From: Myxococcales bacterium
GTDB taxonomy: Bacteria; Myxococcota_A; UBA9160; UBA4427
DNA: 64,000 nucleotides
Assembly (NCBI GenBank): GCA_012960035.1
Contig: DUBZ01000061.1
Coordinates: 62,001 to 126,000, forward strand
Direction of reading: 5' to 3'
Below are positions 15,591 to 58,124 of this stretch, in pieces; position 1 is the first letter of the stretch, and each line of letters opens with the position of its first letter. The notes below the pieces were generated by a model that saw only the letters and a program-made list of their open reading frames with translations, ran no database searches and was not told the origin of the DNA. Both the position numbers and the translations under genes were made by a program.

Positions 15591-16598
15591 ATGACCTCCA
15601 ATACCCAAATCCTGCTCGCTGAAACCCCGCGCGGCAAACTCGAGACAGCACACTTCCAGGTCCAGAAGGGGGAAGTGCCCGCACTCGACGACGGACAAGT
15701 GCTCGTTCGTAGTGTGCTCCTTTCGCTCGACGCGGCGAACCGTGCATGGATGCAGGGTGCGACGTACAAGTCGGCGGTCGAAGCGGGTCAAGTCATGCAC
15801 GGCTACGCGATTGGTGAAGTCGTTGAATCGCGCAGCTCAAAGTTTTCGAGCGGAGACGTTGTGGTCGGCGAACTCGGCTGGCAGGAATATGCTGCCATGA
15901 ATGCCAAGGTCCTTCGTCCGGTGGGCGATCATCGGCCACTGACCCACCACCATTCGGTCCTGGGGATCGCCGGCTTGACCGCACATCACGGACTTCTCGC
16001 CGTCGTCGGGGTGAATGAAGGCGAGACGCTGCTTGTTTCCGCGGCCGGCGGTTCAGTCGGTTCGTTGGTCGGCCAGATCGGCAAGATAAAGGGCGCTCGC
16101 GTCATTGGTGTGGCGGGCGGCCCTGAGAAGTGTCGTTGGGTGGAAGAAAAACTCGGCTTCGACGCCTGCATCGACTACAAGAACGGATCACTTTCGAAAG
16201 CGCTTCGCCAACACTGCCCCGATGGCGTGGATGTCTACTTCGACAATGTTGGTGGTGACATTCTTCAGGCGGCGCTGTTCGCGATGAACTTGAATGGTCG
16301 CATATCGTGCTGTGGCGCGGTCTCGCAGTACGATTCGGCAACGCCCAAAGGACCGCTCGGTGTTCCGGGCTTGCTCGTCACGAAACGCCTAACGATGCGC
16401 GGATTCATCGCCGGGGACTTTCCCGATCGTGACGCCGATGCCCTACGAGATCTCGACGAGTGGGCTTCTTCCGGCAAGCTCAAAGTCGTTGAAGATGTTC
16501 TCGACGGTCTAGAGAGTGCCCCCCAAGGTTTGATCGGATTGCTCGCCGGAGAAAACCGCGGCAAGCGAATGGTGCGTGTGGGGGCAGACCCCGCGTAG
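15591..16598 (+). CDS. NADP-dependent MDR oxidoreductase (leukotriene B4 dehydrogenase/CurA-like)
   Basis: The 335-residue medium-chain reductase lacks zinc-binding cysteines. The cofactor loop VSAAGGSVGSLVGQIGKIKG is at about residues 150-169, and FDNVGGDILQAAL with NGRISCCGAVSQYD is typical of the prostaglandin reductase/CurA group. These enzymes reduce the double bond of alpha,beta-unsaturated ketones with NADPH. AGGAGCCCCCC precedes the ATG. It converges with the hypothetical gene at 16629 with a 30-base gap. Confidence 0.9.
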   Translation: MTSNTQILLAETPRGKLETAHFQVQKGEVPALDDGQVLVRSVLLSLDAANRAWMQGATYKSAVEAGQVMHGYAIGEVVESRSSKFSSGDVVVGELGWQEYAAMNAKVLRPVGDHRPLTHHHSVLGIAGLTAHHGLLAVVGVNEGETLLVSAAGGSVGSLVGQIGKIKGARVIGVAGGPEKCRWVEEKLGFDACIDYKNGSLSKALRQHCPDGVDVYFDNVGGDILQAALFAMNLNGRISCCGAVSQYDSATPKGPLGVPGLLVTKRLTMRGFIAGDFPDRDADALRDLDEWASSGKLKVVEDVLDGLESAPQGLIGLLAGENRGKRMVRVGADPA

Positions 16599-16628
16599 CA
16601 GTACGCTTCATTCCGCGCGCTGTCGAAC

Positions 16629-17216
16629 CTATCTAGGTTCCAATGCAAAGAACCATGTGTCTCCGGTCTCTGCCATTTCGGCGTTCAATCCTGCGCCGTA
16701 CTTACGGTTGATCTCAGACGCGATGCCGCCGAGGGCGGGGTGACCGGCGCGGATGCGTACCAGTTTTCGCTCGTAGCGCTTGCCTTCGATTCGGATGATT
16801 GCGCGAGGATCCTTCTCGGCTTGCATCGGCCACTGCTTCCACAGTTTGCCGACCGCCGAGTTCATGTAACCGCTGACGACGTAGAGCTTGCGGTCGACGA
16901 CTTGCAGCCAAATGGTTCGCGACACCGGCGGCTCGATGAGTTGAAATTCCATTTCGGCGAGGTCCCGCGCGAACGTCCAGTCGGGTTCGGGTCCCATGTG
17001 CATGTCACCGGATTCGAGCGGCCCACCTGGGATGATGACGGTTGGTCCGTCGCCAAACCGCGCGGCGAAGACCAGGACAACCAAAGAGAGCATGAGTACG
17101 ACGACGATGCTGCCGAGCCATTTCAAGATTTGCAACGGATCTCCAGTTCTGGATTTGAATTGAGCCGTAGAAACTAGGGGTTCTCCACCATGAGAATCCA
17201 GTGCCCCGGCGATCAT
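16629..17216 (-). CDS. membrane-anchored hypothetical protein, possible DUF2255-like split barrel
   Basis: This 195-residue protein has one transmembrane segment near the N-terminus (LGSIVVVLMLSLVVLVFAAR). A soluble domain follows with TIWLQVVDRKLYVVSGYMNS, LWKQWP and IRIEGKRYERKLVRI, resembling the flavin-binding split-barrel fold of small deazaflavin/DUF2255 proteins. The start at 17216 is chosen because a longer frame would run deep into the nitroreductase gene. It is probably co-transcribed with the nitroreductase 38 bases upstream. Function unknown. Confidence 0.6.
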   Translation of the reverse strand: MIAGALDSHGGEPLVSTAQFKSRTGDPLQILKWLGSIVVVLMLSLVVLVFAARFGDGPTVIIPGGPLESGDMHMGPEPDWTFARDLAEMEFQLIEPPVSRTIWLQVVDRKLYVVSGYMNSAVGKLWKQWPMQAEKDPRAIIRIEGKRYERKLVRIRAGHPALGGIASEINRKYGAGLNAEMAETGDTWFFALEPR

Positions 17217-48054: not shown

Positions 48055-48496
48055 TCCAGCGGCTCTTCAGGCGACGGGAATCTGACTGTACGGACACTGC
48101 TCAAGTTCATTGCCGGGACAATAGGCCGAGTCGGCGTATTGTCAGTCCCCAATTCAATCACGATCTCTGCCGAGGCTGACGAATCATCGGACACGACTCG
48201 TTCATGGCGATGATTACTGTCGTCAGGAATTCGCACGCGTTGAGTTCGGAAAATCATTGTCCAGGAGCCCTGCGAGAGACACGCTTATATCAATCCACCT
48301 GAGATCGAACAAGTCCCCGTGATCGACGCAAACGCAGTGGCCGACCCGGGCCGCCGTAGACTCGAATTTTGGCGGCCCCGAACGATCAAGTCCCCTCCGG
48401 CATCCGAGGGAAACACTGCTCACGTTATCTAACCACGTCAGATTGCCTATGCTTTCCTCCGCTCGTGTTCGTGAGAGTCTGCCGGCTAGGAGTCCG
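48055..48496. promoter_or_regulatory. divergent intergenic region
   Basis: About 440 bases lie between the GMC/BCCT operon and the metal-efflux operon and should contain both promoters. No gene is recognised. A longer frame for the TolC-like protein opens at 48443, but the start at 48497 is preferred. No clear operator repeat was found; there is no adjacent two-component or MerR/ArsR regulator gene. Confidence 0.4.
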
Positions 48497-49789
48497 ATGC
48501 TTCGATTGATGACAGCCCTGGTAGTGGTGATCCTGTTGGTGGGTGCCCAAAGCATTTTCGCGGACGGCCCGATCGAGAGCGGGATCGACGCGACGTCCAA
48601 TCGTGTTGCCGCCGCCGCCGATCACGGCCACGGCCTCCTCGAAGCTGACCCCGATTTGACCCTTCATGAGGTGATTATTCAAACCGTCGAGATCGAGGCT
48701 GGCAGGCTGGTCGTCGCCGCCCGCCGCGCGGAGGCTGACGCACTCAAGCAAAATGGTCGCAGCGTTCTCTCAGGCGCACCCACGATTTCTGCAAATCACG
48801 GGACGGATGGGTTGTGGTCCGGTGACGGGTATCAACAGTGGGAGGTCGGACTCAACTTGCCTCTCTGGTGGCCCGGCCAGCGAAGGGGCCGGCAGAAGAC
48901 CGCCCGGGCCGCCGGGGCGGCAGCGAGTCACGCACAGCGTGCACACGCCTTGGAGGTGGCGGGCTGGGTGCGACAATCCATCGCTGATCTCGCTGTCTCG
49001 CAGGTTCGCGTAGAACTGACCGAGGCGGAATGGCGTGCCGAGGTGGAACTCGCGAATCAGATCGAACGCGCGGTCGCTCTCGAAGAGCTGGCCCATCGCG
49101 AACTCCTCTTGGCACGAAGCGCGAGCCTCGACCGACGCCTCCTCTATATGGAGGCTCTCGAAGAAGCACATCATGCCGCAGGCACCTACTTCCTCTTGAC
49201 GGGTTTGAATCGGTGGCCGACGGCATGGAGCGAGATGCCCGCGGATTCTGCGGCTCTCGAGAACCACCCCCTGCTCCTGCTGGCCACCGAGGAAATCACA
49301 CGAGCAGAGGGCGAACTCGACCGAGTCTCCGCCGACCAATGGGGGCATCCCGTCCTCGCTCTCGGCACCGAACGCGAGCGTGACAACAGCGCTGCCGGTT
49401 TCGATGATCGGCTCATCGCGGGGCTGACCATCCCGCTCGGGCGCGCCCGAGATGCCCACGCCGGGGTCTCGAGCGCTCGGCGTGCGCTGGCAGAGAAGCG
49501 GCGTGATCGCCAACGACTCGAACGCAAGCTACGCGGCAACCTCATCGAAGCAGAACATCGCTTCGGACTCTCGAGGGAGCGAGTCGCGACCGCATCCGAG
49601 CAAGCCACCATGGCGGCCGAATATCTGCGGTTGACCGACTTGGGATTTGGGCTCGGTGAAACCGACCTGGGTCAACTACTTCGTGCCCGCTCGCGTGCGA
49701 CCGCCGCCGAACAAACACAACGTGAAGCGCTGATTCTTCGCCAGTCGAGTGCCGGCGAGATGAATCAGGCGCTGGGAGTCGTTCCATGA
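48497..49789 (+). CDS. TolC family outer-membrane efflux protein
   Basis: This protein of about 430 residues starts MLRLMTALVVVILLVGAQSI, a signal peptide. It has the long alpha-helical repeats of TolC-type channels (PDLTLHEVIIQTVEIEAGRL at the N-terminus; second repeat with LGQLLRARSRATAAEQTQRE), together with the internal VGLNLPLWWPGQRRGRQKTA. AGGAG stands before the ATG at 48497. It should form the outer-membrane duct of the tripartite pump. Its stop overlaps the adaptor start (ATGA). Confidence 0.85.
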   Translation: MLRLMTALVVVILLVGAQSIFADGPIESGIDATSNRVAAAADHGHGLLEADPDLTLHEVIIQTVEIEAGRLVVAARRAEADALKQNGRSVLSGAPTISANHGTDGLWSGDGYQQWEVGLNLPLWWPGQRRGRQKTARAAGAAASHAQRAHALEVAGWVRQSIADLAVSQVRVELTEAEWRAEVELANQIERAVALEELAHRELLLARSASLDRRLLYMEALEEAHHAAGTYFLLTGLNRWPTAWSEMPADSAALENHPLLLLATEEITRAEGELDRVSADQWGHPVLALGTERERDNSAAGFDDRLIAGLTIPLGRARDAHAGVSSARRALAEKRRDRQRLERKLRGNLIEAEHRFGLSRERVATASEQATMAAEYLRLTDLGFGLGETDLGQLLRARSRATAAEQTQREALILRQSSAGEMNQALGVVP

Positions 49790-50901
49790 GCCCACCGAAA
49801 GCCCTGTTATTGCTTTGCGCGTTCGCGCTGAGCCTGACAATGACGTTGGCGTCCAGCGCAATCGAGATCCTCTCGGTGACGGCGGAGCAGCGTGAAGCCC
49901 TTGGAATCGTCGTTGACAAGGCGCAGCCCAAAAATCTCGTCCCTCGTCCTCGCTTACCCGGTCGCATCACGCTCCCGAACTCGCGAGTTCGATTGGTGAC
50001 CGTGAGAGCGTCCGCGGTTCTGGTCTCGCCGCTTGTAGCGGTCGGTGATTCGGTGACGACGGGACAAGAGCTGGCGCGGCTCGAAAGCCCGGTTTTCGTC
50101 TCCTGGCAACGAGACTACATTCAAGCGCTCTCGCAGCACGACCTAGCACGTGCAACCGCTGATCGTGAACGACAACTCGCCGCGGAAGGAATCATCGCGG
50201 GACGCCGAGCGGCAGAGTCGACAGCGCTGCTACGCGACGCCAGATCCCGACTCGAGGAACAGCGCCAGGCTCTTTCGCTCTCGGGCATGACCAAGCAAGA
50301 AATCGCGCGCCTGGCCAAGACCCACCGTCTCAACCCGACCGTTGTTCTCCGGGCCGCGATCTCCGGCGTCGTCCTCGAACAATACGCGCGTGCCGGCGAA
50401 CGACTCGACGCCGGTGGTGCCCTATACCGGATCGGCGACCTTGAAGCGCTGACGGTCGAAATTCATACACCCCTCGACATCGCACATTCACTCGAGAAAG
50501 GTACGCGCTTCTCGCTTCCTCAAGAAGGCGCACTCGGCGAGGTCGTGGCTATCGGTCGCGAAATTCACTCCCTCGATCAAGGCGTTCTCGTTCGGGGTGA
50601 GATCAAGGAAGGGACGGCTCGCCTTCGGCCGGGCCAATTCGTGCGCGTGCAATTCGAGACGGCCCGGAGCGAAGGCTCCGCATTCGCCGTTCCCTCGACA
50701 GCCGTCGTTCATGCTAACGACCAGGCTTGGCTCTTCGTTCAAGTCGATGGCGGCTTCGCACCGGTCCGGGTCGAGGTCATCGGCGGTAGCGGGTCCGAGA
50801 CCGTCCTCGTTGGCTCCCTTACTGATGACACTCTTTTCGCGATTCGCGGAACCGCAGCGCTCAAGGCGCATTGGCTCGCCAATGGTGGACCTGAAGGATG
50901 A
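49786..50901 (+). CDS. RND efflux periplasmic adaptor (CusB/CzcB-like)
   Basis: The 371-residue membrane-fusion protein has a signal segment (residues 1-25). A biotinyl-lipoyl half (ASAVLVSPLVAVGDSVTTGQ ELARLESP) is split by a helical hairpin (about 105-175) and the second lipoyl half (ISGVVLEQYARAGERLDAGG). Beta-barrel and membrane-proximal domains follow. It links the RND pump to the TolC-like channel. No histidine- or methionine-rich metal-capture N-terminus is visible. It overlaps both neighbours by four bases. Confidence 0.88.
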   Translation: MSPPKALLLLCAFALSLTMTLASSAIEILSVTAEQREALGIVVDKAQPKNLVPRPRLPGRITLPNSRVRLVTVRASAVLVSPLVAVGDSVTTGQELARLESPVFVSWQRDYIQALSQHDLARATADRERQLAAEGIIAGRRAAESTALLRDARSRLEEQRQALSLSGMTKQEIARLAKTHRLNPTVVLRAAISGVVLEQYARAGERLDAGGALYRIGDLEALTVEIHTPLDIAHSLEKGTRFSLPQEGALGEVVAIGREIHSLDQGVLVRGEIKEGTARLRPGQFVRVQFETARSEGSAFAVPSTAVVHANDQAWLFVQVDGGFAPVRVEVIGGSGSETVLVGSLTDDTLFAIRGTAALKAHWLANGGPEG

Positions 50902-53900
50902 TCGCTCGGCTCATCCAGTTTGCGCTCAGTCAGCGCGTCTTTGTTGCGCTCGCAACCGCCGTGCTCGTTGGGGCAGGGTGGGTTTCCTTTCAGCGCACAC
51001 CCATCGATGCCTTCCCCGACGTGTCGACGACCCAGGTCAAGGTCATCGTGCGTGCGCCCGGCATGACACCCGAAGAAGTCGAGACGCGAATCACGGCGCC
51101 TATCGAGGTGGAGATTCTCGGCATTCCGCGACAGACGACCCTGCGGTCGGTGACCAAATATGCGCTGTGCGATATCACGGTCGACTTCGAGGATGGAACA
51201 GACATCTATTGGGCGCGCCAGCAGGTGCTCGAACGTCTTGCGGGAATCTGGGAGGATCTTCCCCCCGGCACGCGTGGCGGCGTTGCGCCAATGACCACGC
51301 CTCTCGGTGAAATGTTCATGTTCACCATCGAAGGTGGCTCGCTCGATCTTCGCGAGCGGCGGGCGCTTCTCGACTGGGTGATCCGGCCGGCCCTGCGAAC
51401 CGTCTCTGGCGTGGCCGACGTGAACGCATTAGGCGGTCACGTCGAAACCTATGAAGTCATGCCTCGTCCGCAAGCGATGCTTGCCCAGGGTATCAGTCTT
51501 CGCGAACTCCGAAACGCAGTCGCCCAGAACAACCAAAACGACGGCGCGGGTCGTCTGGTCGATGGGGAAGAGGTCCTGCTGGTACGCTCCAAAGGCAGTA
51601 TTCGCACCCTTGAGGAACTTCGCGCCGTGGTCGTTCGCAGTCATCCGATTGAGCCCGTGCGCGTCGGAGATATCGCTGAAGTTCAATTGGGTTCTCTGGC
51701 ACGCTATGGCGCGGTAACACGAGATGGTGTCGGAGAGGCAGTGCAAGGGCTCGTCCTGTCTCTGCGCGGCGCGAATGCGCAGAATGTCGTCGAGGGTGTT
51801 CGAGTCAAGCTGCTCGAACTCGAACCAGGTCTTCCCGAAGGCGTCGAAATTCGGGTCTTCTACGATCGCGGCGAGCTTATCCGCACGGCGGTGGGCGCCG
51901 TACAGTGGTCGCTTATCAGCGCCGTCGGACTCGTGATCCTCGTCTTGATCGCATTCCTTGCTGATTGGCGAGCTGCATTCACCGTCGCACTCGTGCTTCC
52001 CTTGTCCGTCCTATCGACCTTTATCTGGATGCGACAATTCGGACTCTCGGCGAATTTGATGAGCCTGGGCGGTTTGGTCATCGCGATCGGAATGCTGGTC
52101 GACTCCGCCGTGGTCGTGATCGAAAATACCGTGTCGCATCTGGCCAGTCGCGCTGGAAGCCGTTTGCCCCGACTCCATGTCATTTACCGCTCCGCCCGGG
52201 AAGTCTCTCTCCCGGTGGTCGTCGGCACGACGATTATCGTGTTGGTCTTCCTTCCCTTACTCACCCTAGAAGGACTCGAAGGAAAGCTATTCATCCCGGT
52301 TGCGCTCACGATCGTCTTTGCCCTGATCTCCGCACTCGTCGTCTCACTCACCGTTCTCCCAGTCGTCGCCTCGATCCTTGTTCGATCGGGGAGCGGCGGT
52401 AGTCCCCGTCTGATGCATTGGCTTGAGGCTCGTTATCGTGGGAGTCTCGAATGGGCGCTTGCGCACGAGCGCCAGGTCTTTGCAGGGGCGGCGATGTTAC
52501 TCGTCGTCGCGATGCTCCTTTATCCCTTTATCGGCCGAATCTTTCTTCCGACTCTGAATGAAGGGACGATGATCGTGCAACTGGAGAAGCTGCCTTCGAT
52601 CAGTCTCGAGACTTCTCTCGACCTCGACCTACGGGTCGAAAAGGCGTTGATCGATCGCGTTCCCGAAGTCCTGGGTGTCGTTGCGAGAACGGGGTCCGAC
52701 GAAATCGGACTCGACCCAATGGGCCTGAATCAGACGGATGCTTTTCTCGTCTTGCGCCCCCGCGCGGAATGGGAAGTCGATTCGGCGGACGCGCTTCTCG
52801 ATCGGATTCGCGACGTGATGAACGACTTTCCGGGCATCGCCTATGGGTTTACACAGCCGATCGAAATGCGCGTCTCTGAAATGTTGACCGGCGTGCGTGG
52901 AGATGTCGCAGTCAAGCTTTTCGGATCCGATCTCGCAGCACTCAACCAGAGCGCTGACGAGATCGCCGCGCTGCTCAAGACCCTTGATGGTGCCGAGGAT
53001 GTCTTCCGCGTACTTTCTGAAGGTGCCGAATACCTTGAGGTCGAGATTGATCCCCTCGCGGCCGGGCGCCTCGGACTTCCCGTCGAAGAACTCCAGGAAC
53101 GGCTCCGGGCACGGCTAGACGGCTTGCACGCGGGAATCGTCTATTCCGGTGTACGACGAATTCCGATCCTCTTGCGGGGCAGCCCTCTGCTTCGGGCGTC
53201 CCCCCTCGACTTCATGAATATCCAACTCCCAACGAGTCGCTCCGAGCCAATCCCACTGGCGCAGGTCGCTTCGCTTCGTCGGGTCGAAGGCCCTGTGCAG
53301 ATCAATCGCGAAGGCGCTTCGCGCCTCGTCGTGGTGACCGCGAATGTCCGAGGGCGCGACCTCGTCGGTTTTGTCGAAAATGCCAAACGGCGAGTCAATG
53401 AAGACATCAGCCTGCCCGCCGGTTCGCGTGTCGAGTGGGGCGGCCAATTTGAAAATCAACAGCGCGCGTCTGCGCGATTGGCATTGGTCGTCCCCATTTC
53501 GCTCGGTCTGATTTTCCTACTTCTCTTTTCGGCTTTCCGTTCCATGGCGCAGGCCGGGCTCGTGCTCGTGAATATCCCGCTCGCCTTGATCGGAGGAATT
53601 ATGGCGCTATGGGTTTCGGGCGAATACCTCTCGGTTCCCGCGACGATCGGGTTCATTGCGCTGTTAGGCGTCGCTGTCTTGAACGGTATTGTTCTCGTCA
53701 CGACCTTCAATCAACTTTCGGCTGAAGGCATGCCGATCGAGCAGGTCGTGCGCGAAGGGGCCGCTCGTCGCTTGCGCCCCGTGCTCATGACCGCGGCGAG
53801 CACTGCCCTCGGACTGGCGCCGCTCCTGATTGCCAGCGGCCCGGGCTCCGAGTTGCAGCGCCCCCTCGCGATCGTCGTCACAGGAGGCCTCCTGAGCGCA

Positions 53901-53978
53901 ACCGCCCTGACATTGATTCTCCTTCCCATTCTCTATCGCAGGCTCTCCCTGCGACATGAGCTCGAGGCTGCAAGATGA
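50898..53978 (+). CDS. heavy-metal efflux RND permease (CusA/CzcA family)
   Basis: The 1026-residue protein starts IQFALSQRVFVALATAVLVG and has the RND plan of two repeats, each with a periplasmic loop. Typical HME-RND motifs are FPDVSTTQVKVIV, APGMTPEEVETRITAPIE and GMLVDSAVVVIEN in TM4. The latter lacks the first aspartate of the CzcA DFG motif, reading AIG as in the monovalent Cu/Ag class. EMRVSEMLTGVRGDVAVKLF keeps the CzcA-like pattern. It exports metal cations with protons. Cu+/Ag+ is favoured from TM4, but this is not settled. Confidence 0.9.
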   Translation: MIARLIQFALSQRVFVALATAVLVGAGWVSFQRTPIDAFPDVSTTQVKVIVRAPGMTPEEVETRITAPIEVEILGIPRQTTLRSVTKYALCDITVDFEDGTDIYWARQQVLERLAGIWEDLPPGTRGGVAPMTTPLGEMFMFTIEGGSLDLRERRALLDWVIRPALRTVSGVADVNALGGHVETYEVMPRPQAMLAQGISLRELRNAVAQNNQNDGAGRLVDGEEVLLVRSKGSIRTLEELRAVVVRSHPIEPVRVGDIAEVQLGSLARYGAVTRDGVGEAVQGLVLSLRGANAQNVVEGVRVKLLELEPGLPEGVEIRVFYDRGELIRTAVGAVQWSLISAVGLVILVLIAFLADWRAAFTVALVLPLSVLSTFIWMRQFGLSANLMSLGGLVIAIGMLVDSAVVVIENTVSHLASRAGSRLPRLHVIYRSAREVSLPVVVGTTIIVLVFLPLLTLEGLEGKLFIPVALTIVFALISALVVSLTVLPVVASILVRSGSGGSPRLMHWLEARYRGSLEWALAHERQVFAGAAMLLVVAMLLYPFIGRIFLPTLNEGTMIVQLEKLPSISLETSLDLDLRVEKALIDRVPEVLGVVARTGSDEIGLDPMGLNQTDAFLVLRPRAEWEVDSADALLDRIRDVMNDFPGIAYGFTQPIEMRVSEMLTGVRGDVAVKLFGSDLAALNQSADEIAALLKTLDGAEDVFRVLSEGAEYLEVEIDPLAAGRLGLPVEELQERLRARLDGLHAGIVYSGVRRIPILLRGSPLLRASPLDFMNIQLPTSRSEPIPLAQVASLRRVEGPVQINREGASRLVVVTANVRGRDLVGFVENAKRRVNEDISLPAGSRVEWGGQFENQQRASARLALVVPISLGLIFLLLFSAFRSMAQAGLVLVNIPLALIGGIMALWVSGEYLSVPATIGFIALLGVAVLNGIVLVTTFNQLSAEGMPIEQVVREGAARRLRPVLMTAASTALGLAPLLIASGPGSELQRPLAIVVTGGLLSATALTLILLPILYRRLSLRHELEAAR

Positions 53979-54301
53979 ACGAATGCCTGCTCACATTGAT
54001 CGCGACGCCCGAGCTCGAGGAGCGGCTCGTTGATTGGCTGCTCGAGGCGAATCATGAGGGCTTCACCACCTTTCGCTGCCAAGGTCACGGCGTGCATGCT
54101 GATCGCCTATCGACCGCCGAACAGGTGGCGGGCCGCCAGCGGCAGATCGCGTTCTGGCTGCAACTTCCCGAGGGCGAAGCCGAGGTCGTGATCCGGGGTC
54201 TCTCGAATAGCTTCGGGGGCGCCGGTCTGCATTTCTGGATTACCCCCGTGCTTGCTGGCGGACCGATCGGCTCGCCGGCATCGGGCGAAACAACCGCCTG
54301 A
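53975..54301 (+). CDS. DUF3240 family protein
   Basis: This 108-residue cytoplasmic protein starts MNECLLTLIATPELEERLVD and continues WLLEANHEGFTTFRCQGHGV, with a small ferredoxin-like (PII-like) fold expected. DUF3240 genes regularly follow CusA/CzcA-type pumps. Their role is thought to be metal sensing or pump regulation but is not established. It overlaps the RND gene by four bases and ends the operon. The histidines in QGHGVHADR may bind metal. Confidence 0.82.
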   Translation: MNECLLTLIATPELEERLVDWLLEANHEGFTTFRCQGHGVHADRLSTAEQVAGRQRQIAFWLQLPEGEAEVVIRGLSNSFGGAGLHFWITPVLAGGPIGSPASGETTA

Positions 54302-54516: not shown

Positions 54517-55023
54517 CTAATCGAAAGGGGTGCCGTAGCCAGCGCGTTGATCGTATGTTGCGAGGGGATTGGCGGATTCGTCGCCGAAAATTGTAAGGGG
54601 CCGATCTTCCTGAGTGCATTCAGACAGCCAGCTGGCGATGCCGACGCGGGTCGACGTCGACTTCAGGTTCCAATCCGATTCGCGCACGACGACTTTCCCC
54701 GGGTTGATGCTGACGATCAGGGCGTCCATTTCCAATCGAGCGTTGTTGTCGCATCGGTCATAGATGATCCGCCCTTGTTTTGAGAGATGTCCGGGAACGT
54801 CTCCCCTCTGCGGGATCTCCGATGGCGTTCGCCCGGTCGTGCTTGTTTCGAAATCATTGCGCGTGTCTGCAGGCATTGTGGAGCCGTCTGGGGAAGCGGG
54901 CTTTGAGGCGGGGTCCGAAAGGCGCCAGGCAATTCCAATCCCGATCATGACAACCAGGCCGATGAGCAGGATCGGGTAGCGACGGGTCGAAGGTTCGCGG
55001 CGTGATGAATCCGGCTCGCTCAT
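54517..55023 (-). CDS. hypothetical single-pass membrane protein
   Basis: This 168-residue protein starts MSEPDSSRREPSTRRYPILL with one transmembrane segment (ILLIGLVVMIGIGIAWRLS), a proline/serine/threonine-rich linker and a soluble domain. The domain includes IIYDRCDNNARLEMDALIVS and WLSECTQEDRPLTIFG, where two cysteines may form a disulfide. I do not recognise the family. It starts 12 bases after the stop of the large surface protein at 55035, so the two are probably co-transcribed and functionally linked. A start at 55053 would overlap that gene. Confidence 0.65.
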   Translation of the reverse strand: MSEPDSSRREPSTRRYPILLIGLVVMIGIGIAWRLSDPASKPASPDGSTMPADTRNDFETSTTGRTPSEIPQRGDVPGHLSKQGRIIYDRCDNNARLEMDALIVSINPGKVVVRESDWNLKSTSTRVGIASWLSECTQEDRPLTIFGDESANPLATYDQRAGYGTPFD

Positions 55024-55034
55024 CGAAAGTCCGA

Positions 55035-58000
55035 TCAGCTTTCCGGCGCCCACTTCCGATGCAGCATCCGATACGAGATCGCGCAGGAGATTGAACTCAA
55101 GATGAACAAGCCCAACAGGGATGCAGCCGGAACGGCGGGAACACTGGGGAAAGAAGCGGGGTTGGTCGGATCGGTTCCCTCCAAAATCTCGAAGTCGTCG
55201 TCGAACGAATCGCCGTCTGTGTCGCTCAGAAGTGGATCCGTACCCGTATTGAAGGCCGAAACGAAGCTGCCGGTATTGGTCTCGTAGACGTCGAGCAACG
55301 TGTCATTGTCGTCGTCCTGATCGCAGGCGTCGCCGGCCGAGTCGGTATCCGTGTCGGTCTGAAGATCGTTTGGGGCATCTGGACAATTGTCGGCACCGTC
55401 AAGAAATGCATCCCGGTCTCGATTGATTCCAACCCGCGTGCCGCTTCCCGGTGGTACGCACGTATAGGTCAGAGGTCCGTCGGTTGTGGCCAAGGCGCGG
55501 AGAGCAGCATCGACGATCGTCGCTCCTGAATCGTCTTCGAAGTGAACGGGCCCAGGTCGATAGACCCAACCTCGGCGCGCAACGCCCACCGTACCGGAAA
55601 CCACCAAATCGCATTCCTTTAAACTGGATCCTATGGCGAGGGAGGCAAAGGAGGTACTGGCCGCCGAGATCATGGCGTCGATGCGCGCGCCGACGATACC
55701 CGCGTTCGTCGCGTCGAGCGTCACTTGTTGACCGACCATCGGCGCAAGGTCCGTGTTGAATGCGAAGAGGAAGTCGACGATATCGTCGACCTCGGTCGCG
55801 ATCAGCCCTGGGAACGCCGAGACAAAATTGGTCGGGTTGTCCGTCGATCCCGTGGAGAGGATGCCGAATCCACGTACCTGATCTCCGGTATGCGTCGCGG
55901 GCACGTTGGCCGCAACGTCGAGAAAGGACCCGAACATCCCGACTTTCGTATGCAAGCTGCGAAGCTGAGGCACCTTGGCGGCATTACCGGCGGAGCCGTT
56001 GGTTCCGAAGAATCCATTCGCTGGGTCCAGTATGTGGCACGTCGTACAAGTCACGGGGGCCGGGATCGGCTTGGTCGTAAAATTCGCTAGCCCATTGGCC
56101 TCCGAAGCCGTGAGCGAATTGTCGATGTTGCGAACCGAATTCGGCGGCATTGTGATCTGCAGAGCAAAATCTGTGAACTTCTGCATGTCGGCTTGACTGA
56201 GTACGCCATCTTTCCCGACGAGTCCTTCGAATGCGACTCGAAAATTCATGAACGAATGATCTTCCTGACAGGCTGCACCGGTGACCTCCACGCACAAGTC
56301 TTCGCCTTCGATTCCATGAAGTCGATCGCCTCGCCAATGCATCGCGCCATGTGTGGCGATACTGCGAAAGGTCTGAGTCGTCATCGGCCCCTTCATGGAA
56401 TGGAAAGTGGCTGCCGGGCCGGAGAAGGGGGCTGCGGGCTGATTGTTGTTGGTCACGACGCCATCGGGGTTGCCAAGATTCCAGGCCAGTGAATCAACGT
56501 CGCCGAAGATATGGCAACTCGAACATGAGGCTTCGCCGTTTCCGGAGGTCAGGAAGGCGTCGTAGAGGAAGGGGCGCCCTTCGACGACGATCGTGGGCTC
56601 TGGATTAAAAAGGGGCACGGTCTGGAATGTGGTCGCGTTGTTGAGATCGATGACGTTGATCGAATTGTCGAAACGGGTCAGCACGTAGAGGCGGTTGTGG
56701 GTTTCGTCGAGAATCAATCCGCTCGGGCCACCGCCGGTCGAGATGTAGTTTGCGCTTTCGGTTGTCGGATCAAAGACGTCGCTCTCAAGATCGTTCGCGT
56801 CGAAGACGCCGACCTTGGCCGATCCGTAGGCTGCGACGTAGAGTGTCGAACCGTCTGATGAGAAGACCATGTCCACGGGAGTTGCGAGACTATGATTCTT
56901 GGCCGTCGGGTCAACGAGGTCCGGCGTATCCGTATGGAGTTTGCTGTAGTCGATATGCTTGTTCAGATGGCGCACGTCGACGGTACCGACTCCACTCAGT
57001 ACGCTGACACGGGAAAGCGACAGCCGTCCCTGCACGGTACTGCCACCGCCACCGGGTCCCTCGAAGAGCACCTCGTTCGGAGAGTCGATGTTGCTGACGT
57101 AAATCTTTCCGTTGCCTGGCCGAACCGCCATGTTGAAGAGAATCGTTCCGACGTGGTCGAACTCCGCGACGCCGCCGGCGATCAGAGAGTCGGCTGAAAC
57201 CGCGAATACGTCGTGGTCCGGTAGATCAAACATCACGACGCTGTCCACGTTCGTGCCCGCTTGATTTTCCCAGTGGTTCGTCGAGTTGTTGTACTTGGCG
57301 ATCGACCCGGTGAAGGGCGCGACGACCGAAGGCGGCCCGACGCTTGCCCCGGGCCCATCCATTCCGGCAGGGAGTGTGAGGCCCCCATTGATGCAGCCGG
57401 TGGACGGGTTAAAGCTGTTGCAGACCGCCTGATTGCTCAACGACGTCGTCTGATTGCCGGAGTGAAATCCCGCGACGTAGACCGTCGCTTGATCATTGCT
57501 GACCGCGAGAGCACGCGGTGTGTCCGTAAAGAAGGTCATGATTTCGATAGGGTCGCCGCCGATCGCTGTTCCCGGTGCCGTCGCGTCGAAGACCCAGACA
57601 TCGGCACGGCCAATGCCTTCCGCCTTGAGTTGCGGGTCACCACCGCCGATCGCGCCTGAAATGGTCAGGCGGTGTTGACCACGATGCGCCGTGGTGATGA
57701 ACGCGCGATCCGTGGTGTCTCCGGCGAAGACGATGTCACGTGGTTCGTCGCCGACGATCAACGTCTGGACAACCGCGGGCACGGGAAGGCTGGGGTCGAC
57801 GATGCTAACGCTATCCGACAGGTGATTGACGACCCAGACGCGCCCGTCGCTCGCGACGGCGACCGCGCAGGGCTCTACGCCAACGGGGACGGAAGCCGTC
57901 TTGATCAAGCCTACTGCAGTGACATTGAAGATCTCGAGTTCGCCGTCGGGAATATTGGTCGCGTAGAGTTCGAGCCCGTTGGCGGAGACGGCGAGCGGGC

Positions 58001-58124
58001 GCACGGGGCCGGTCTCGAAGGTCACGAAGTCGGCGCGTGCGGGACCGACCGAAATGAATAGGACGGCGCCAAGGAGACAGGCAATCAGAATACGACGGAG
58101 CGATTCAGCCACTGTGATGAACAT
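55035..58124 (-). CDS. exported propeller/diheme/TSP3 protein with PEP-CTERM-like tail
   Basis: The 1029-residue protein has a signal peptide (1-31) and then YVTN-type beta-propeller repeats to about residue 510 (VEPCAVAVASDGRVWVVN, MVFSSDGSTLYVAAYGSAKV). A MauG/cytochrome c peroxidase-like diheme region carries CSSCH at 534-538 and CTTCH at 693-697. A loop domain, thrombospondin type 3 calcium repeats (about 900-985, DNCPDAPND, DACDQDDDND) and a C-terminal sorting tail (VPAVPAASLLGLFIL, helix, RMLHRK) follow. It is probably surface-exposed and redox active. The tail suggests processing by an exosortase-like enzyme, none of which lies in the window. Confidence 0.82.
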   Translation of the reverse strand: MFITVAESLRRILIACLLGAVLFISVGPARADFVTFETGPVRPLAVSANGLELYATNIPDGELEIFNVTAVGLIKTASVPVGVEPCAVAVASDGRVWVVNHLSDSVSIVDPSLPVPAVVQTLIVGDEPRDIVFAGDTTDRAFITTAHRGQHRLTISGAIGGGDPQLKAEGIGRADVWVFDATAPGTAIGGDPIEIMTFFTDTPRALAVSNDQATVYVAGFHSGNQTTSLSNQAVCNSFNPSTGCINGGLTLPAGMDGPGASVGPPSVVAPFTGSIAKYNNSTNHWENQAGTNVDSVVMFDLPDHDVFAVSADSLIAGGVAEFDHVGTILFNMAVRPGNGKIYVSNIDSPNEVLFEGPGGGGSTVQGRLSLSRVSVLSGVGTVDVRHLNKHIDYSKLHTDTPDLVDPTAKNHSLATPVDMVFSSDGSTLYVAAYGSAKVGVFDANDLESDVFDPTTESANYISTGGGPSGLILDETHNRLYVLTRFDNSINVIDLNNATTFQTVPLFNPEPTIVVEGRPFLYDAFLTSGNGEASCSSCHIFGDVDSLAWNLGNPDGVVTNNNQPAAPFSGPAATFHSMKGPMTTQTFRSIATHGAMHWRGDRLHGIEGEDLCVEVTGAACQEDHSFMNFRVAFEGLVGKDGVLSQADMQKFTDFALQITMPPNSVRNIDNSLTASEANGLANFTTKPIPAPVTCTTCHILDPANGFFGTNGSAGNAAKVPQLRSLHTKVGMFGSFLDVAANVPATHTGDQVRGFGILSTGSTDNPTNFVSAFPGLIATEVDDIVDFLFAFNTDLAPMVGQQVTLDATNAGIVGARIDAMISAASTSFASLAIGSSLKECDLVVSGTVGVARRGWVYRPGPVHFEDDSGATIVDAALRALATTDGPLTYTCVPPGSGTRVGINRDRDAFLDGADNCPDAPNDLQTDTDTDSAGDACDQDDDNDTLLDVYETNTGSFVSAFNTGTDPLLSDTDGDSFDDDFEILEGTDPTNPASFPSVPAVPAASLLGLFILSSISCAISYRMLHRKWAPES

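Follow-up and report, generated by a model that had tools for sequence, protein, structure and literature searches.

The subject of this report is a gene in a 64,000-nucleotide stretch of DNA (hereafter the window) from a Myxococcales bacterium (assembly GCA_012960035.1, contig DUBZ01000061.1, positions 62,001 to 126,000 of the forward strand), together with the small gene that follows it. The encoded protein joins a YVTN-type beta-propeller, a domain with two c-type heme motifs, an Asp-rich segment resembling TSP3 repeats and a tripartite C-terminal tail behind a signal peptide (Table 1). It appears, with moderate confidence, to be an exported, peroxidase-like diheme redox enzyme on the cell surface. 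More broadly, the arrangement probably amounts to the surface display of a propeller scaffold together with a two-heme redox enzyme, the latter distant kin of the enzyme that makes hydrazine in anammox. Chemistry of the peroxidase type is proposed by homology.

The propeller is recognized in the window protein by two family models, NCBIfam beta_rpt_yvtn (36.9 bits, above its cut-off of 27.85) and Pfam Lactonase (32.7 bits, above 21.7), and it appears in an AlphaFold model of the whole chain built from 52 sequences (mean predicted local distance difference test (pLDDT) 83, predicted template modelling score 0.86). The two CxxCH motifs, at residues 534-538 and 693-697, are kept across the family alignments. 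At the other end of the chain, the model places a helix at residues 1003-1022, between VPAVPAASLLG and the basic terminus. All three of these elements had been named in the original prediction and hold up. The TSP3 repeats that it also named fare less evenly, as residues 902-944 resemble cartilage oligomeric matrix protein (3fby, 5.1e-8) and the NCBIfam MtsC model matches the segment at 3.8e-8, but Pfam TSP_3 stays below its cut-off (19.1 vs 25 bits). The union of all four elements in one chain had been called unusual. This is true of the combination with this tail, but not of the propeller-diheme core, which is a widespread family and, to judge from the accessible part of PMC12758564, is an already reported fusion type resembling the beta and gamma subunits of hydrazine synthase (HZS).

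In a scan of one genome per species, covering 84,980 species, the conserved core of about 870 residues had 267 relatives, the best 80 of which were kept. The conservation set comprises these best 80 of 267 loci plus the loci of paralogs and relatives, and its class frequencies are not population frequencies. Its 114 rows, less 5 duplicates, yield 109 distinct cores, three of them truncated. Three paralogs with 55-59% identity reside in the window's own genome, and 98 of 117 related genomes give matches at E<=0.001, often weak or partial ones. Members are found in Myxococcota, Acidobacteriota, Binatota and Pseudomonadota, including Myxococcus xanthus, Aquabacterium, Rhizobacter and Steroidobacter agaridevorans. 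Each core from the best 80 of 267 loci carries exactly two CxxCH motifs, save one that is truncated; both motifs are kept in all 52 members of one alignment, and the second is present in 108 of the 109 distinct cores, the exception again being truncated. Since the pair is kept across both sets, it is not a product of chance. Around the motifs, His538, Trp548, His596, Trp597, Arg598 and Asp600 are kept in every one of the 109 cores, an acidic residue lies within six positions before F625 in 108, and an HDG motif is widely retained (H in 90, D in 104, G in 108). A pair of Cys residues in the loop after Trp597 (C611 and C619 in the window) marks exactly the 26 members of one clade in the tree of these cores, with a Shimodaira-Hasegawa-like approximate likelihood ratio test (SH-aLRT) value of 100.

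Judged by sequence, the nearest characterised relative of the core is the HZS beta-gamma pair, with all scores far below membership. A profile of the 52 aligned members found, among solved structures, the archaeal S-layer YVTN protein 1l0q (2.5e-20), HZS beta (5.7e-10), HZS gamma (1.1e-5) and the di-heme enzyme 6e1c (0.009), and a heme-domain profile of 30 members found HZS gamma (6e-8), 6e1c (4.4e-4) and cytochrome c551 peroxidase (8e-4). Foldseek with the whole model placed HZS beta first (8.9e-16; next 5.9e-12) and VIA-align gave a near tie between HZS beta (Z 19.5, 320 residues, root-mean-square deviation 2.6) and 1l0q (Z 19.1, 286 residues, 2.1), both being whole-chain searches dominated by propellers. 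In the alignments, HZS gamma and the core family have in common CASCH...WDLG after heme 1 and RN-D-SLT-AQ (R-N-x-D-x-SLTxAQ) before heme 2; the WDLG stretch is absent from the aligned peroxidases. At the level of family models, hydrazine_BC (NCBIfam) is matched by 23 of 24 members and hydrazine_gamma by 10 of 24 (E<=0.001), while CCP_MauG (PF03150) is matched by 29 of 30 (E<=0.01). The redox enzyme of the original prediction is supported as far as this homology of the heme segment to HZS gamma, 6e1c and di-heme peroxidases goes; its activity and heme loading are predictions.

Fused homologs of HZS beta and gamma are described in the accessible part of PMC12758564 as prevalent in environmental bacteria, and their clades I-III carry a Trp in place of His144 of HZS gamma, as in peroxidases and MauG. 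HZS gamma is itself reported as a homolog of MauG and bacterial cytochrome c peroxidase (excerpts of PMC12607021), with Cys165 as a third heme-bound Cys and an Asp at 168 (excerpts of PMC12758564 and PMC12607021). At the proposed gamma144 site, located from PMC12758564 together with spacing and motif, all 109 cores have Trp and not His. Cys619 and the acids at 621/622 lie in a loop that corresponds by spacing to Cys165/Asp168, the Cys pair being limited to the 26 cores noted above; a Cys611-Cys619 disulfide would be as good a reading as a third heme bond at Cys619. From its spacing, Trp597 is taken here to be the equivalent of the inter-heme Trp of MauG and cytochrome c peroxidase. The window protein scores far below the HZS cut-offs (31.6/1250 bits for the beta-gamma fusion, 32/560 bits for beta), and a search of its genome (96.65% complete) found no HZS alpha over cut-off, only one partial match (20/800 bits) on another contig. 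Hydrazine synthase itself was ruled out on these grounds. Given the invariant Trp597 and the lack of an HZS alpha over cut-off in the genome, the core is, as far as comparison of this kind can tell, HZS-beta-gamma-like in build and not a hydrazine synthase.

While the core is constant, its attachment is swapped among a VPxL tail, PEP-CTERM, Cys-type CTERM, a dockerin-like end, a lipoprotein or none. Over the 109 cores the C-terminal types, which were classed semi-automatically with 30 rows assigned by hand from the tail reading, are none (34), other (24), VPxL-type tail (21), dockerin-like (12), Cys-type CTERM (8), PEP-CTERM (7) and truncated (3). Attachment type changes 23 times on the tree, against a minimum possible of 6. 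Seven of the 109 have a lipobox-like pattern near the N-terminus, and genuine lipoproteins appear to be among them. At least five distinct exosortase-like genes lie in the window's genome (G000 contigs C92, C137, C124, C107 and C47), which suggests several sorting classes. PF09721 has nine matches there, five of them in long open frames with NCBIfam exosortase matches; all five pass the TIGR04178 signature cut-off and one passes that of 8TM_EpsH. The PEP-CTERM model TIGR02595 has 15 matches in the same genome (E<=0.001), and the IPTL_CTERM model TIGR04174 has none there, its control giving no match either.

Tails of the VPxxxxxG type end all four paralogs of the window's genome. A profile of 14 tails matches the window gene and two paralogs at <=3.3e-16 and C124 at 5e-6, with weaker matches, up to E 1, at the end of the fourth paralog and in unrelated proteins with VPxxxxG tails. 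In one paralog (L097 10202-13663 onward; L164 487-1611; G000:C1:56330-60378), Cys-rich EECDDGN-type repeats, partly masked, precede a VPVPSFSG tail. In relatives, matches to residues 888-1020 also lie within frames of different sizes, so that other proteins probably have the TSP3-plus-tail unit too. Anchoring by an exosortase-type system had been proposed at the outset, along with a search of the genome for exosortase genes and for further proteins with a VPxxPxxxxLG-like tail. Both are present and, with at least five exosortases and other proteins bearing similar tails in one genome, the surface-anchor reading stands.

Turning to the small downstream gene, its product has an N-terminal membrane segment and a two-Cys domain, and homologs of it are encoded directly downstream of the C58 paralog and of the cores at L016, L017, L118, L119 and G001:C74. 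In G083 (L117 1108-4563, G083:C9), core, sorting tail and partner occupy one open frame of 1151 amino acids that lacks an ATG at the junction; the tail lies mid-frame, ahead of a second hydrophobic stretch that carries a signal-peptidase-like site, although an assembly frameshift may be an alternative. Among 377 genomes of the phylum, a profile of the partner matched at 8 places, in 6 genomes and each beside a core; a scan of 90 class genomes, a set that overlaps the first, gave the same 8 places, likewise in 6 genomes. This count is partly circular in that seven of the 8 places are profile seeds found beside cores; its independent content is that no match lies away from a core in the 377 genomes and that the eighth place (G001:C74) is also beside one. 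Scoring covered 10 first-look candidates per genome in the larger scan and up to 42 in the smaller, so that misses are possible. The partner accompanies seven of the 109 distinct cores, and two of the four cores in the window's genome lack it. In the tree, one clade (SH-aLRT 98) unites six of the seven partnered cores, and L017 lies outside it.

Across the final 95 columns of their alignment, the eight partner sequences are on average 35% identical, and all share C91, V113, W118, S131, W132, S134, C136, L154, Y157 and G162. No Pfam or NCBIfam family exceeds its cut-off for the partner, PDB sequences searched by profile yielded no match at E<=10, Foldseek with the partner model against the PDB gave nothing under E 0.45, and further structure comparison did not exceed Z 3.8. 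Since the model is built from 3 sequences and has a mean pLDDT of 67.9 (about 80-94 in the domain blocks), these absent fold matches are not evidence of a new fold. The original prediction of a dedicated partner is well matched by this exclusive adjacency to the core. The two proteins would be co-expressed and make physical contact, the partner serving as a putative membrane-bound accessory or, more boldly, as a substrate of the core.

Taken together, the favored reading runs as follows. The core protein would be exported by its Sec signal peptide, and the YVTN propeller would act as a scaffold, as proposed for HZS beta, in one chain with the diheme domain. Two hemes would be loaded onto this domain of the MauG / cytochrome c peroxidase / hydrazine-synthase-gamma type. 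Heme 1 (C534xxCH538, with Trp597 and the acidic loop 620-622) may be where a small oxidant reacts, hydrogen peroxide being the likeliest one, with heme 2 (C693xxCH697) as a candidate electron relay. The Asp-rich TSP3-like stalk, which would bind calcium, leads to the tripartite tail, and this would be recognized and processed by one of the cell's exosortases so as to hold the protein at the surface. The tail would be an interchangeable anchor: the same core occurs in relatives with a different anchor or with no anchor at all. Cores of the window's subclade come with a gene for a small dedicated membrane protein, whose two-Cys, two-Trp domain would face the same side.

Several observations weigh against a working peroxidase-like enzyme held by such an anchor. 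The heme region of the model is of low confidence, with many 10-residue blocks at pLDDT 52-78, which is expected because the model was made without heme. The heme domain of the window protein is below the Pfam CCP_MauG cut-off (15.0 vs 25.6 bits; 17.9 for the domain alone), and the tail is not among the 15 TIGR02595 matches in its genome. The position of the Met in the aligned peroxidases, where Met or Tyr is the canonical ligand of heme 2, is occupied in the family by a residue of non-ligand type (HMMER alignment), and heme 2 would therefore not be canonical. The window copy is also the most divergent of 24 members compared, with 11 departures at near-invariant positions, three of which (N723S, Y725H and D758T) are near heme 2, and it could therefore be altered or weakened. 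Taken further, it might be a degenerate member, changed around heme 2, whose main role has become that of a scaffold or sensor at the surface, a view favored by the missing HDG motif and by the usual residue at 723, 725 and 758 being kept in 105, 104 and 104 of the 109 cores. Such decay is nonetheless considered unlikely: the open frame still encodes an intact propeller, both CxxCH motifs, Trp548 and Trp597, the partner has not been lost, and N723, Y725 and the HDG motif persist in L016, the nearest relative (68%).

A MauG/MbnH-like enzyme might instead oxidize aromatic residues of the partner to give a modified residue or a cross-link. The proposed targets would be the invariant Trp118, Trp132 and Tyr157 next to the Cys91-Cys136 pair, two Trp and two Cys being invariant in all eight partners. 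Homology to 6e1c and CCP_MauG, a match to the MbnH family model in one of 24 members, the confinement of the partner to the side of a core in 377 genomes and the single open frame of G083 are consistent with this. However, invariant Trp and Cys are common structural residues, and because most family members have no partner, its modification is not the general role; it is doubtful as the role of the window pair. A more elaborate version, a surface maturation pair in which the core cross-links or otherwise oxidizes Trp118 and Trp132 of a disulfide-bound partner domain, Cys619 forms a third bond to heme 1 as does Cys165 of HZS gamma, and the G083 polyprotein is split by processing into enzyme and substrate, is very unlikely. 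Reduction of nitric oxide or a related compound, as in HZS gamma, would suit the standing of HZS beta and gamma as the best or equal-best solved relatives, the W-D/N-LG and R-N-x-D-x-SLTxAQ motifs in common, and the Cys and acid in the loop after Trp597. The Trp at the His144 site, the scores and the lack of HZS alpha over cut-off make it quite improbable. Finally, an electron conduit across the envelope had originally been suggested, and two heme motifs in a surface-directed protein would suit it. This reading was rejected, and is barely credible, as there are only two hemes, the window has no multiheme cytochrome, none of the neighbor families around the core at 84 loci is conserved in a way that suggests a conduit, and nothing is appended at the C-terminus in about a third of the distinct cores (34 of 109).

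Table 1. Positions of the core gene, its partner and their parts in the window
Feature	Position	Strand	Basis
Core gene, encoding 1029 amino acids: propeller, diheme domain, TSP3-like segment, CTERM-like tail	55035..58124	-	Open reading frame with ATG start; family searches
Sec-type signal peptide, residues 1-31 (predicted end ...GPARA/DF)	58032..58124	-	Sequence; helix 3-22 in model; without lipobox
YVTN-type beta-propeller, residues 33-504	56613..58028	-	Pfam, NCBIfam and PDB matches; model; fold searches
MauG / HZS-gamma-like diheme domain, residues 505-800	55725..56612	-	Alignments; heme-domain profile; Pfam CCP_MauG in relatives
First CxxCH, C534-H538, followed by W548 and the W-D/N-LG motif common with HZS gamma	56511..56525	-	Alignments
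Trp597 of HWRGDR, invariant	56334..56336	-	109/109 cores
Cys611...Cys619 loop adjoining the acidic cluster; Cys pair confined to a 26-row tree clade	56268..56294	-	Tree and loop alignment
Second CxxCH, C693-H697; window copy differs from family downstream (N723S, Y725H, D758T)	56034..56048	-	Alignments
Conserved C-terminal domain of core, residues 801-900, ending in PPGSGxR	55425..55724	-	Family alignments; model
TSP3-like Asp-rich segment, residues 901-990	55155..55424	-	Pfam, NCBIfam and PDB sequence matches
Tripartite C-terminal tail (residues 995-1029), made up of VPAVPAASLLG, a membrane segment and a basic end	55038..55142	-	Sequence; tail profile; model
Partner gene, beginning 11 nucleotides past the core stop: membrane segment at the N-terminus, linker of low confidence, 2-Cys/2-Trp domain	54517..55023	-	Open reading frame; profiles; model
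Partner domain, residues 88-165, with invariant C91, W118, W132, C136, Y157	54529..54762	-	Alignment; model

The surroundings of the core are otherwise variable. A conserved operon was sought and rejected: beyond the partner, neighbors at the 84 loci, judged by eye, are response regulators, short-chain dehydrogenases and MalT/LuxR-like regulators, along with clade-specific synteny. A regulator, taken here to be MalT/AlkS-like and of the LuxR type, adjoins core genes that lack a tail in Myxococcaceae, Comamonas and Rhizobacter-like bacteria (L023, L024, L041, L057, L062); its cluster also takes in L032, L040, L044 and L048 via opposite-frame open reading frames. Its position beside tail-less cores may point to an inducing compound. 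In the window, one open reading frame of at least 100 amino acids besides the core contains CxxCH, a single motif in a 145-residue frame 54 kb away, and a heavy-metal resistance-nodulation-division efflux operon, CusCBA-like by eye, at 48443-54301 on the + strand converges on the partner gene. About 5 kb from the C58 core paralog is a CCP_MauG-family match with two stops (L096 around 16575-17093; G000:C58:21836-22084).

A literature search turned up no paper on the propeller-diheme core family, although PMC12758564 and PMC12607021 are relevant to its architecture. What look new here are the swapping of anchors on a constant core, the exclusive partner and the case of core and partner in a single frame. 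If the favored reading is true, Myxococcota, Acidobacteriota, Binatota and Pseudomonadota share a large family of exported redox enzymes related to HZS beta-gamma, and the chemistry of an anammox-enzyme fold becomes testable in ordinary cultured strains. One core with several kinds of attachment offers a natural series for the comparison of surface anchors, and the exclusive partner provides a concrete handle on the function of the core.

Among known systems, the tail resembles exosortase/PEP-CTERM sorting in its tripartite form, in the exosortases of its genome and in the similar tails of other proteins, but it has VPxxPxxxLG in place of VPEP and draws no TIGR02595 match. The Cys-containing tails of eight of the 109 family members, judged by pattern and eye, recall the Myxosortase/MYXO-CTERM system as presented in the accessible part of PMC11980579, whereas the window's tail is of another type. 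The propeller is close to that of 1l0q (Z 19.1 vs 19.5 for HZS beta), although the title of that entry gives a PKD domain beside the propeller and names no diheme domain. With the di-heme cytochrome c peroxidases, MauG and MbnH (PF03150) the core shares two CxxCH motifs, an inter-heme Trp and, in most of the family, HDG; unlike them, it is fused to a propeller, and the window copy lacks two residues of HDG (H and D) and falls below the Pfam cut-off. The closest likeness is to HZS beta-gamma (5c2v) and, on architecture, to the fused homologs reported in PMC12758564, among which the core family may or may not be included: a propeller precedes a MauG-like diheme domain, and both subunits are matched by profile. 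Since this pair is the nearest relative, yet every score is far below membership, the core is best regarded as a variant of the reported fusion type. It differs from HZS in having Trp597 instead of His, in its scores and in a genome without HZS alpha over cut-off, and the window protein adds to the shared plan a conserved domain at residues 801-900, a TSP3-like stalk, a CTERM-like tail and a dedicated partner.

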